NCBI RefSeq assembly: GCF_900083545.1 | Contig: NZ_LT559262.1 | Location: forward strand, 2,513,673 to 2,577,672 | DNA length: 64,000 bases | Source of the DNA: Alistipes provencensis | GTDB lineage: Bacteria; Bacteroidota; Bacteroidia; Bacteroidales; Rikenellaceae | Direction of reading: 5' to 3' | Shown here: positions 21,889-39,232 of the stretch, in pieces | Numbering within the stretch: position 1 is the stretch's first letter | Layout: the number at the start of each line of letters is the position of its first letter | The notes under the pieces: model-generated | The model's database searches: none | What the model saw: the letters and a program-made list of their open reading frames with translations, nothing else | Told to the model about the DNA's origin: nothing | Program-made: the position numbers and the translations under genes

Positions 21889-22204
21889 CTGTCTGAAATA
21901 GATTTGCATCGGGGGTCCCGGTATACAAAAGTCCCCCTTTTCAAAGGGGGATTTAGGGGGATTGTCGGTACTGGATTTTTCGGGGATTGTATGGCGTTTT
22001 AGGGGGCAATCCCGTCTGGATGCTTACTTCTGTCGGAAATAAATCTGCATGGGGTGTCCCGGTATACAAAAGTCCCCCTTTTCAAAGGGGGATTTAGGGG
22101 GATTGTCGGTACTGGATTTTTCGGGGATTGCATGGCGTTTTAGGGTGCAATTCCGTCTGGATGCTTATTTCTGTCGGAAATAAATCTGCATCGGGACTCC
22201 CGAA
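21889..22204. repeat. 141 bp tandem repeat carrying copies of the der 3' end
   Basis: Exact 141 bp period: the CTGTC of the der tail recurs at 21889, 22030 and 22171. Two full units and the start of a third, which is the real end of der. In each copy the minus strand encodes the peptide MQIYFRQK and a TAA stop, with only synonymous differences between copies. The ~105 bp spacers are nearly identical and hold the hairpin CCCCCTTT-TC-AAAGGGGG followed by ATTTAGGGGG. This fills the 341 bp between the DUF417 gene and der; no other gene is seen. Confidence 0.85.
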
Positions 22205-35559: not shown

Positions 35560-35943
35560 ATGGATGTTTTGAGTTTCCGCGACTACTGCCTGTCGCTGCC
35601 CCTGACCGAAGAGACGACCCCTTTCGACGAGACCACACTGGTCTATAAGATCGGCGGCAGGATGTACGCCTGCGCCGATATGGAGGCGTTCGAGTGGATT
35701 GCCGTGAAGTGCGACCCCGACGAGGCCATTGCGCTGCGCGAGCGGTATGCGGAGGTGAATCCGGCGTTTCATTTCAACAAGGTGCACTGGAACGGCATCG
35801 GCACCACGGGCGACCTGCCCGACGCTTTCATCCGCGAACAGATCCGCAACTCCTACCTGCTGGTCCTGCGGCAGAACGTCACGCCCCGGGCCCGCCGCGA
35901 GGAGATTCTGCGCTATATAGACCAACACGGCCTGCCCGTCTAA
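35560..35943 (+). CDS. MmcQ/YjbR family protein
   Basis: 127 residues, compact. The fold is the CyaY-like MmcQ/YjbR double-stranded-DNA-binding-like family: N-terminal FRDYCLSLPLTEETTPFD, VYKIGGRMYACADME, the strand EWIAVKCDPDEAIALRERYAEVNPAFHFNKVHWNGI, and helix EQIRNSYLLVL. The function is unclear. The stop (35941-35943) lies inside the beginning of the inverted-repeat element that surrounds the thiamine transporter gene. Confidence 0.82.
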   Translation: MDVLSFRDYCLSLPLTEETTPFDETTLVYKIGGRMYACADMEAFEWIAVKCDPDEAIALRERYAEVNPAFHFNKVHWNGIGTTGDLPDAFIREQIRNSYLLVLRQNVTPRARREEILRYIDQHGLPV

Positions 35944-36019
35944 GAGGCGGGATTTAGGGGCTGCGGAGACTTTTGCACATCAGACGCGATTTCCGCTACG
36001 ACCCACGCTAAATCCCGCG
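35934..36019. repeat. Left arm of the inverted repeat around the PnuC-family gene
   Basis: AAGAGGCGGGATTTAGGGG... through TTTCCGCTACGACCCAC to AAATCCCGCG. The reverse complement of 36768-36849 aligns along its length with few mismatches. Both arms also share a GCCCG(T/C)CTAAGAGGCGGG end. It begins within the last codons of the MmcQ gene. Confidence 0.75.
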
Positions 36020-36059
36020 TTTTACGCAGGTAGGCGGTATCCGGCCCGGAACCATCCGA

Positions 36060-36160
36060 AGGTCGGTCGCCCCCTAAAACCCGCCTTTTAGGCGGGTAGC
36101 GCAACTCTTGCTCCGATACGGGAACTCCTGCCGCCGCCCCTAAAACCCGCGTCTTACGCG
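36060..36160. repeat. Two further CCCCTAAAACCCGC hairpin units
   Basis: CCCCTAAAACCCGC occurs at 36071 and again at about 36137, each followed by a complementary arm (CCCGCCTTTTAGGCGGG; CCCGCGTCTTACGCGGG). The second one supplies the last codons of the PnuC-family gene. Confidence 0.6.
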
Positions 36161-36748
36161 GGCTTGTTTCCTCCAGCGGAGATAACCTGCGACGGCCAGC
36201 GCCGAATAGAGGGCGTAGAGCCCTGCGGTGAGCGGAATCTCCTTATATAAATAAAGCCCCGCCGTCACGACGTCTACGGCCAGCCACACGAGCCATTGTT
36301 CGACCTGTTTGCGCGAGAGCATCCACATCGCCACGATGCTGGCGGCCGTGGTCCCGGCGTCCCAGAAGGGTACGGTGCTGTTGGTGAAATACACCAGCAG
36401 CAGGTAGATGGCCGCATGGGCCGCGGCGTAGACCCCGACGAGCCCCGGAATCTGCCGCAGGGGCGTGTGAACGATCTCCGCAGGGACTTTCTTCGGAGCT
36501 TTCGGAGCAGCGTGCCGCCGCGCACGGCGCCATACCGCCCAACCGTACAGCCCGGCCAGCACATAGTAGACCTGCATCGAGCAGTCGGCATACAACCCCG
36601 CCTTGAAATAGAGCGTGCCGTGTACCACGGGCATCACGAGACCCACGATCCACAGCCGGATGTCGGCGCGGTATTCGAGCCAGAGATAGGTAAGTCCCAG
36701 CAAGACCCCTGCGATTTGCAGGATGAGTTTCCAATCCATCGTTATCAT
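36140..36748 (-). CDS. PnuC-family transporter, probably thiamine (PnuT-like)
   Basis: 202 residues with seven membrane helices, the size of PnuC/PnuT facilitators (LTYLWLEYRADIRLWIVGLVMP, WAVWRR, VPFWDAGTTAASIVAMWMLSRKQVEQWLVWLAVDVV). PnuC proteins move vitamin precursors, with the vitamin set by context; here the gene follows a TPP-riboswitch-controlled TonB receptor, so thiamine is likely. Alternative start at 36739. The last residues (QARVRRGF) are encoded inside a repeat hairpin. The thiamine pyrophosphokinase often found next in Bacteroidota thiamine operons is absent here. Confidence 0.8.
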   Translation of the reverse strand: MITMDWKLILQIAGVLLGLTYLWLEYRADIRLWIVGLVMPVVHGTLYFKAGLYADCSMQVYYVLAGLYGWAVWRRARRHAAPKAPKKVPAEIVHTPLRQIPGLVGVYAAAHAAIYLLLVYFTNSTVPFWDAGTTAASIVAMWMLSRKQVEQWLVWLAVDVVTAGLYLYKEIPLTAGLYALYSALAVAGYLRWRKQARVRRGF

Positions 36749-36755
36749 TTATTAT

Positions 36756-36849
36756 CCGCCCGCCTAAGAGGCGGGTTTTAGAGTGGGTCGTAGCGGAAAT
36801 TGCGTTCTGATGTGCAATAGGCCGCCGCAGCCCCTAAATCCCGCTTCTT
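36756..36849. repeat. Right arm of the inverted repeat, between TonB receptor and transporter
   Basis: Opposite-orientation copy of 35934-36019. It sits in the 129 bp gap between the transporter start and the receptor stop, so the whole transporter gene is enclosed. A GCCGGCGTAAGACGCCGGC hairpin at 36856-36874 follows, just after the receptor stop on the minus strand. Confidence 0.75.
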
Positions 36850-36877
36850 AAGCGGGCCGGCGTAAGACGCCGGCGGG

Positions 36878-39232
36878 CTAAAATTTCACCGTTACGTTCG
36901 CCAGTACGTTGAGCGGCGCCTGCGGGAAGTAGAACGCGTTGTCGATCTGCTTTCCTCCGGTATATTCCGAATAGCCGTATCCGTTGCTTTCGTACTCGGT
37001 GTTGAAGAGGTTGTTGACCAGCAGTCCCAGCCGCACGCTGCGCGCCGCCTTCGTGCGGAACGTATAGGCGAGGTTGAGGTTGGTCACGCAGTAGGCGTCG
37101 AGCATCATGTCGGGATTCTCGTAGTTGGTGAAATACTGCTTGCTGACATACTGCGTGTGTAACACGGCCTCGAACCCTTTGTGGTGGAAGTCGAGCAGCA
37201 GCGCGGCGATGGTCTTGGGCGAGTAGGAGAGGCGCGTGGTCCCCATCTCGACGGTGTGATAGCCGTAATACCCGGCCACGTCGCCCGAAGTGTCGTAATC
37301 GACCACCCGGTGCACATAGTTTTCGATGCGGTTCTGCGAGAAGGTGGCGTTGGCTCCCACGGTGAACCATCCCGTCGCGCGCCACGCCGCCGACAGCTCC
37401 ACGCCCCGGCGGTAGCTGTCCGCCACGTTGTCGTTCAGCGAGTCGTAGCCGTCGTTGATGCGGCCCGTCGGCACCAGTTGGTCCTTGTACTTCATGTAGT
37501 AGAAGTTCACGCCCAGCGAAAGGCGCGGAGCCGTGTACTGGTAGCCCAGCTCCCAGTCGTAGAGCTTCTCCGACGAGGGGTAGGTGTTGGCCTCGGCGAA
37601 CATGTAGCGGTCGGTGAAGTCGCTGCGCGTGGGTTCCTTCTGGGCCACGGCGAACGAGAGGTAGAAGTTGTTGCACTCGGCGAGCGTGTAACTGATGCCC
37701 ACACGGGGATTGAAGAAGTGATAGGTCTTGTCCACGTCGATGGGCTGCATGCCGACCTCCTCCGAAACGAAGTTGTCGTTGACGCCCCACGCCTGATAGC
37801 TGACATAACGGTACTGGAGGTCGCCGAAAAGGCGCAGTCCCCGGGCGACGGTCCACGATGCGCGGGCGAAGACGTTGGCGTCGTGCTTGTCCACGTCGTT
37901 GTCGTACCAGCGGCCGCCGATCTGACTGCTTTCCAGTCCGTCCACCCAGTCGAGCGTACCCCAGTGGGGGCAGGAGTAGTAGCTGTACGACGCTCCGAAG
38001 GTGAGATCGAGGTTGCGTACCGAATAGGACGCCGAGGCGTTCAGACCTCCTAAGTGGTTGCGCATCAGCTTTTCGCGGATGAGGTCGGCCTCTTTCCCGG
38101 CCGCGACTTCGGTCGGGATGTTGAGGTATTCGGACAGCGTGCGCCCGTCCTTATATTGTTTGTAGAAACCGTAGCCGTAGGTGTAGAATCCCGTGGCGTT
38201 CAAGGTCCACTTCTCGTTGAAACGGTGGGAGAGCACCAGCTGGTTGTTGATCTGCAGGTAGTTGTCCGTCTGGTCGTCGTAATAGCCTACCGTGGCGCGC
38301 TCCACCTTGTCGTCGTCCATGTAATAATAGGAGTGCGGGCCGTTGGAGGTGTAATACATGCCTTCGGTCTGGAACCGCCGGCCGTTGAGGCGCATCTGCT
38401 CCTTCGTAACGCCCGTGTAGGTGAGGCCGGTCTTGGCCTTGCCGCCGAACGAAAGGAATTTGAGCATCGTGTTGCCGTTGTAATACCCGGCCTGAAACAT
38501 GTAGGATTTGAGGTCCGTGGCTCCGCGGTCGATGTAGCCGTCCGATCCGATGTGCGTCAGCCGTGCATCGAGGGTCCAGTGACCGCCCATCAGACCCGAC
38601 GAGAGGTGTACGGCCTGCTTGTTGGTGTTGTATGAGCCGTAGGAGAGCGATGCGTCGCCTCCGAATTCGGTCTGCAGGGCGTCGGTCGACATATTGATAG
38701 CGCCGCCGAAGGCTCCCGTGCCGTTGGTCGAAATACCCGCGCCGCGTTGCACCTGCACGGTCCCCACCGACGAAATCAGGTCGGGGGTGTCGTACCAGTA
38801 CATCGAGTGCGAATCGGGGTTGTTCATCGCCACGCCGTTGATCGTGACGTTGATGCGCGTGGCGTCCGTGCCGCGCAGGCGGATGGCCGTTCCGCCGATG
38901 CCGATGCCGGTCTCGTTCGTCGCCACGACCGAGGGGGTGAAAGCGATCAGCGAGGGAATGTCGAACCCGTAGCTGTTGCGGGCGATCTCGCTGCGCGTGA
39001 TGTCGGAATAGGCTACGGGAGTGTTTCGGGAGGCCCGCGTGGCGGTCACCTCGACCTCCTGCAAACGGTACATCCGCACCGAATCATCGGCACCGGACGC
39101 CGGTTTTTCGGGCGTCGGAGCCGTTGTGCCGTTCGGAGCCGCATTTCCGCTCCGTTCGGGTAAATCTTCCGCGTGCAGTTGTGCGGCCGGGCAGAGCGCG
39201 GCAGCCGCAAGAATCAGAAAAATCCTTTTCAT
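36878..39232 (-). CDS. TonB-dependent outer-membrane receptor, probable thiamine receptor
   Basis: 784 residues. Signal peptide MKRIFLILAAAALCPAAQLHA. A TonB-box-like region and plug domain follow: LQEVEVTATRASRNTPVAYSDI, IAFTPSVVATNETGIGIGGTAIRLRG, GVAMNNPDSHSMYWYDTPDL, VQVQRGAGISTNGTGAFGGAINM. The 22-strand barrel runs to a terminal aromatic-type end (NVLANVTVKF). It carries a nutrient across the outer membrane using TonB energy. A TPP riboswitch precedes it, so thiamine or a derivative is the likely cargo. Confidence 0.92.
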   Translation of the reverse strand: MKRIFLILAAAALCPAAQLHAEDLPERSGNAAPNGTTAPTPEKPASGADDSVRMYRLQEVEVTATRASRNTPVAYSDITRSEIARNSYGFDIPSLIAFTPSVVATNETGIGIGGTAIRLRGTDATRINVTINGVAMNNPDSHSMYWYDTPDLISSVGTVQVQRGAGISTNGTGAFGGAINMSTDALQTEFGGDASLSYGSYNTNKQAVHLSSGLMGGHWTLDARLTHIGSDGYIDRGATDLKSYMFQAGYYNGNTMLKFLSFGGKAKTGLTYTGVTKEQMRLNGRRFQTEGMYYTSNGPHSYYYMDDDKVERATVGYYDDQTDNYLQINNQLVLSHRFNEKWTLNATGFYTYGYGFYKQYKDGRTLSEYLNIPTEVAAGKEADLIREKLMRNHLGGLNASASYSVRNLDLTFGASYSYYSCPHWGTLDWVDGLESSQIGGRWYDNDVDKHDANVFARASWTVARGLRLFGDLQYRYVSYQAWGVNDNFVSEEVGMQPIDVDKTYHFFNPRVGISYTLAECNNFYLSFAVAQKEPTRSDFTDRYMFAEANTYPSSEKLYDWELGYQYTAPRLSLGVNFYYMKYKDQLVPTGRINDGYDSLNDNVADSYRRGVELSAAWRATGWFTVGANATFSQNRIENYVHRVVDYDTSGDVAGYYGYHTVEMGTTRLSYSPKTIAALLLDFHHKGFEAVLHTQYVSKQYFTNYENPDMMLDAYCVTNLNLAYTFRTKAARSVRLGLLVNNLFNTEYESNGYGYSEYTGGKQIDNAFYFPQAPLNVLANVTVKF

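Follow-up and report, generated by a model that had tools for sequence, protein, structure and literature searches.

REP-like palindromic repeats around pnuT in Alistipes provencensis supply the ends of some of its proteins and are probably kept at gene ends by their own stop codons

The stretch analysed here (the window; 64,000 nt of Alistipes provencensis contig NZ_LT559262.1, positions 2,513,673–2,577,672) carries around the gene pnuT several copies of a family of short DNA repeats that is probably REP-like, moved by an enzyme that was lost or went unrecognised, and retained at gene ends by means of its own stop codons. Such REP/REPIN-like palindromes would have expanded within a part of the genus Alistipes, the new copies around pnuT having probably arrived as one set in the gap between the convergent genes mmcQ and pnuT and as another doublet between pnuT and the gene of a TonB-dependent receptor. 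Each unit has stops in two of the three forward frames—TAA in the loop and TAG in the head—so that a copy landing in the last codons would terminate the gene within a few element-coded residues and not destroy it; since landing at a gene end would be tolerated, copies would be kept mostly there, with the C-termini rewritten. A trans-acting nuclease, lost or unrecognised, would have moved the repeats in the form of DNA, and selection may be the reason for the retention at gene ends.

The mmcQ/yjbR gene (35560–35943, plus strand) has its stop TAA (35941–35943) in the loop of hairpin 1, and its product ends with ...QHGLPV as opposed to ...HGLPE in relatives. Hairpin 1 with its head (CCCGTC-TAAGA-GGCGGG-ATTTAGGGGC, 35935–35961, plus strand, 44.1 bits) and hairpin 2 (CCTGCG-TAAAA-CGCGGG-ATTTAGCGTG, 36004–36030, minus strand) make up arm 1 (35935–36030), one head-to-head doublet of 96 bp. 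The tandem hairpin 3 (CCCGCC-TAAAA-GGCGGG-TTTTAGGGGG, 36070–36096, minus strand), located 66 bp from its neighbours, and hairpin 4 (CCCGCG-TAAGA-CGCGGG-TTTTAGGGGC, 36136–36162, minus strand) follow, the mmcQ–pnuT gap being composed of repeat units throughout (35935 on the plus strand; 36030, 36096 and 36162 on the minus strand, these three spaced by 66 bp). Hairpin 4 codes for the PnuT end ...ARVRRGF, the stop codon TAG of pnuT (36140–36748, minus strand) lying within TTTTAG. Arm 2 (36759–36856), the second doublet of 98 bp and inverted with respect to arm 1, is situated between the TonB receptor gene and pnuT, both belonging to one operon, and consists of hairpin 5 (CCCGCC-TAAGA-GGCGGG-TTTTAGAGTG, 36759–36785, plus strand) and hairpin 6 (CCCGCT-TAAGA-AGCGGG-ATTTAGGGGC, 36830–36856, minus strand); all six hairpins are matches to the covariance model described below. 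A headless hairpin, CCGGCG-TAAGA-CGCCGG (36858–36874, plus strand), read by eye and not counted as a copy, adjoins the stop codon of the TonB receptor gene (36878–39232, minus strand), which is the first gene of the operon.

With regard to function, Pfam and NCBIfam assign PnuT to the PnuC family (NMN_transporter, PF04973) and to nothing narrower. From its context, a thiamine role of the operon and the label of thiamine transporter seem reasonable, because a TPP riboswitch (RF00059, 39274–39368, minus strand, E 2.5e-8), at 47.6 bits just under the Rfam gathering score of 54.3, is found upstream of the TonB receptor gene and heads the operon, and because the gene after pnuT in some Rikenellaceae resembles, as read from its sequence by eye, a thiamine pyrophosphokinase.

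The inverted repeats around pnuT that had been pointed out in an earlier note on this DNA do exist, 83 of 98 aligned columns being identical between 35935–36030 and the reverse complement of 36759–36856; their limits need correction, arm 1 ending at 36030 and arm 2 starting at 36759. The inverted pairs seen in the window comprise 47 nt at 85%, 37 nt at 89% and 15 nt at 93% identity. The arms also occur elsewhere: arm 1, used as a query against the own genome, hit 17 places and recovered arm 2 on the opposite strand (E 2.6e-24, 84%). The related hairpins reported between the arms are present between mmcQ and pnuT, and the window has 10 occurrences of the motif CTAAAWCCCGC (up to one mismatch), compared with an expectation of 2.3; in 100 shuffles a count of 10 was never attained. 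Concerning the codons placed inside the arms, this is correct for the stop of mmcQ (arm 1, loop of hairpin 1) but not for the end of pnuT, which lies in the separate hairpin at 36136–36162.

The unit of the family is a 17-nt hairpin (loop TAAGA) followed by the head WTTTAGGGGC and a spacer of ~40 nt, and it occurs singly, in tandem (spacings of 59–70 bp, n=24) or as a head-to-head doublet (95–100 bp end to end, n=9, with one more of 97 bp having a weaker second hairpin), each arm around pnuT being one such doublet. The doublets thus have the architecture of REPINs/BIMEs, i.e. two inverted units at a fixed spacing, and they bear terminal inverted repeats as MITEs do. From 28 copies a 27-nt covariance model was made, comprising the 6-bp stem, the TAAGA loop and the WTTTAGGGGC head. 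Its matches in the own genome up to E 0.1 number at least 102, 69 of them below 1e-4; fetching and scanning them yielded at least 101 copies at 65 loci of the chromosome, which is a lower bound since scoring covered 150 of the 1034 candidates of the first look. Exact matches to CCCCTAAAWCCCGC number 11 in the own genome versus none for the reversed control. Covariation of the stem pairs is reflected in 24 two-sided changes against 5.0 in shuffles, the first sequence set having been partly preselected for pairing, and in stem cells that are paired in 100% versus at most 49% when slid. Called genes are free of internal copies except at their 3' ends, and the repeats are, like REPs, short extragenic palindromes in dozens of copies. 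No match for the family was obtained from Rfam in 88 kb comprising the window and copy-bearing loci, where only a tRNA exceeded the gathering score, and keyword and sequence-string searches of the literature gave no description of it.

Several other repeats were seen in passing. Four nearly identical 65-bp tandem units lie at 1149512–1149733 of the own genome, in a gap of more than 1 kb where no gene is called with confidence. Another hairpin of the same design (CCCCCTTTTCAAAGGGGGATTTAGGGGGAT), matched weakly by the covariance model, is present in two copies 141 bp apart at 21920–22110 of the window, and the intergenic, hairpin-rich segment 34519–34800 (TTTTTGCCGCTTTTTGGTCGGCAAAAAGCGGC) has the appearance of a further repeat. 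The family is often adjoined by a third repeat (GCCCCTCCCGAGGGAGGGGTTTAGGGTGGGGTCAGACTTGTAAAC and its relatives), e.g. near 486912, 1960665, 2080338, 2363251, 2709247 and 3781161 of the own genome.

As far as the distribution is concerned, the family is matched in 26 of the 180 Alistipes genomes; the 16 genomes sampled from other families of the order gave no match. A. provencensis is close to Alistipes sp. Zagget8 and A. montrealensis. The arrangement of the TonB receptor gene followed by pnuT, convergent with mmcQ, exists in many Alistipes genomes without repeats, several relatives having a plain bidirectional terminator in the mmcQ–pnuT gap; at such repeat-free loci the C-termini are ordinary (PnuT ...RKQATV or ...RRQVTE; MmcQ ...HGLPE). 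In that gap the model matches only in Zagget8, the closest relative, and at one other locus (L105). The Zagget8 PnuT ends with ...LARVRRGF, as in A. provencensis, while its MmcQ ends with ...GLPEPA, encoded by GAA|CCCGCC-TAA-GAGGCGGG, where the unit is joined exactly at the point at which the native stop would begin; the ...GLPV of A. provencensis may reflect a later deletion between two CCCG runs. In the same gap of Zagget8 (L097:6593–8350) an AAA_25 ATPase gene and a small ORF lie between two direct 222-bp composite repeats, each made of a hairpin, a GAACGTGCGAACGCACGAACA palindrome region and a hairpin. The ATPase was rejected as associated machinery, being absent from the own genome and present at one locus only in Zagget8.

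Using the last 130 nt before 23 outermost hairpins at gene ends as queries, 60 orthologous places were located and fetched in seven relatives. A model match is missing at 49 of them, several sites being empty in every relative sampled, and present at 11 (Zagget8 8/16, A. montrealensis 3/20, other relatives none). The clean insertion at locus 3491340 is evident from TTGA|TATAAGC in Zagget8 versus TGA|69 bp|TATAAGC in A. montrealensis, and A. provencensis has there a unit with the stem CACGCC/GGCGTG, its CACGCC being the final two codons of the gene in A. montrealensis. At locus 2347665 the left join comes directly after TAA and much of the sequence of the following gene is gone, and at locus 243014 the last codons and the stop have been replaced. 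The search for target-site duplications revealed none beyond a possible single base at 3491340 (A. montrealensis versus Zagget8), the other sites showing deletions; many insertions are thus accompanied by local sequence loss, unlike clean transposition. At two further Zagget8 loci (L220 and L225), the 5' arm and loop are partly duplicated directly before the hairpin (CAGGCGTAAGACG|CAGGCGTAAAACGCCTG and CAGGCTTAA|CAGGCTTAAGAAGCCTG). A spread of repeats that reshaped C-termini, one of the two readings offered earlier, is therefore supported: the arms are found at dozens of other sites, their presence varies between close relatives, and the last codons of PnuT, of MmcQ and of some dozen further proteins come from the repeat, the gain of which changed these C-termini.

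The positions relative to stop codons fall into distinct classes, the counts of which are approximate, as gene ends were taken from a home-made hexamer gene caller that missed mmcQ and made a few doubtful calls, e.g. 1964233 and 3615059, seemingly antisense; 32 loci were inspected one by one. Among the 76 outermost hairpins, 47 have a same-strand gene upstream (sense orientation). In eight of these 47 the hairpin begins on the base after the stop (offset 0) and in one it overlaps the stop by one base; the stop is in the loop (offset -9) in ten and in the head (offset -23) in six, mmcQ being an additional case of the loop class outside the 47. The offset-0 class, in which TAA, TGA and TAG are all represented, is enriched with P ~1e-11 under a uniform model over 0–100 nt and P ~1e-13 relative to placement at random in the intergenic parts of the same segments. 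The repeat-coded tails at offset -23 loci share a pattern (such as HLRGGF, RLKDGI, HLKGGI, RVRRGF, RLKSGL). At the compared loci the proteins end within a few residues of their native length, as selection against damaging insertions would be expected to leave them. Such selection explains the -9 and -23 classes, but not offset 0.

The closest known systems include REP sequences and REPINs/BIMEs of the GTAG family associated with RAYT/TnpA_REP (PMC3733652, PMC6006769, PMC3116915), which resemble the Alistipes family as extragenic palindromes of 20–40 bp in high copy number, with inverted doublets of ~100 bp, arrays and differences between relatives. The Alistipes repeats differ from them by the constant WTTTAGGGGC beside the stem and by carriers without RAYT, and the GTAG/CGTC tag is found in none of 101 copies when the 6 nt on the 5' side of the stem and the 10-nt head are inspected. 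The family thus works like REP/REPIN, yet it departs from the GTAG/RAYT type in two defining features, the tag and the gene. A survey (PMC6006769) described Bacteroidetes TnpA_REP genes (subclass 2.6) with atypical untagged REP-like structures, i.e. from the same phylum and likewise without the GT[AG]G tag; here, however, the transposase gene is absent in the carriers and WTTTAGGGGC was not found beside the inspected Y1_Tnp genes. Similar palindromes directly downstream of stop codons are those E. coli REPs that lie within 15 nt of the stop and are reported to stall ribosomes (as described in PMC12306157), whereas in Alistipes the stop codon is often followed by the hairpin without any base between or lies within it. 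A precedent for the reshaped C-termini is provided by QMITE1 and QMITE2 of Coxiella, small repeats that overlap gene 3' ends and give new C-terminal residues and stops (PMC5896051); QMITE2, of ~190 bp, has flanking direct repeats of 7–9 bp (PMC5896051), the Alistipes repeats being without such duplications.

Concerning the machinery, Pfam Y1_Tnp/TnpA_REP (PF01797) has no match in the own genome or in the carrier genomes; matches exist in two of the 180 Alistipes genomes, neither of them a carrier, the full-length one adjoining a TnpB-like gene, an arrangement as in IS200/IS605. Eight Bacteroidales Y1_Tnp genes belonging to other families do not show the WTTTAGGGGC head in their flanks, and together with the RAYT-free carriers this led to rejection of a RAYT association, although hairpins beside three of the eight have similarly short stems. 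As a lead, the family could be a relic of an untagged Bacteroidetes TnpA_REP system.

The best surviving alternative, itself unlikely, sees in the hairpins transcription terminators or mRNA 3'-end structures under selection, which recombination would have spread for their use at gene ends. It would fit the GC-rich hairpin followed after most stems by TTTTA or ATTTA, the commoner sense orientation after a gene (47/76) and the window hairpins occupying the place of a bidirectional terminator of several relatives. The T-run is, however, of 3–4 only, a consensus scan of the region gave no excess (2 found, 1.6 expected), native terminators are often still downstream (loci 243014 and 3053511), and many units are reversed, in the middle of arrays or inside the TonB receptor–pnuT operon. 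Selection on a transcribed hairpin should, moreover, favour GT on one strand; stem mismatches of the GT (15) and AC (13) type are about equal, without RNA-strand bias, and an RNA role consequently gets no support, which speaks against RNA-level selection on the hairpin strand, although the hairpins may still act in RNA.

That the repeats are MITEs from a conventional insertion sequence whose ends they form is distinctly unlikely: the terminal inverted repeats of the doublets and the presence varying between relatives agree with it, but the sole clean filled/empty site lacks a target-site duplication, the genes between neighbouring copies, read by eye, have an ordinary chromosomal look with no transposase noticed, and phage and plasmid records gave no match to the repeats, an origin from either being rejected as well. 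The exact joining of so many copies at the stop codon might point to an undescribed RAYT-independent process, improbable as it is, that recognises the end of an ORF and joins the element beside any stop codon, the 3' arm of the hairpin being later rewritten to the host gene's last codons; such rewriting is suggested by CACGCC and CGGGCC, two unique stems that start with the final codons of the gene itself. Finally, a mobile cassette or composite element with pnuT moving between its flanking inverted repeats of ~97 bp, the other reading of the earlier note, is highly improbable in spite of the different gene held between the direct composite repeats of Zagget8, since in repeat-free relatives, which share the gene order, pnuT stands at the same position and in the same direction after the TonB receptor gene, the operon is headed by the TPP riboswitch, and the arms are two individually dispersed copies of a ~97-bp doublet; pnuT is not their cargo.

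REP-like repeats are usually attributed to a resident RAYT. The Alistipes family, with ~100 copies, recent gains and a different constant tag, has no RAYT gene in any of the 26 carrier genomes, and it therefore either outlived its enzyme or uses another. Its anchoring at stop codons has produced a natural set of proteins with repeat-coded C-termini, PnuT and MmcQ included, for which the relatives with empty sites may serve as ready controls.
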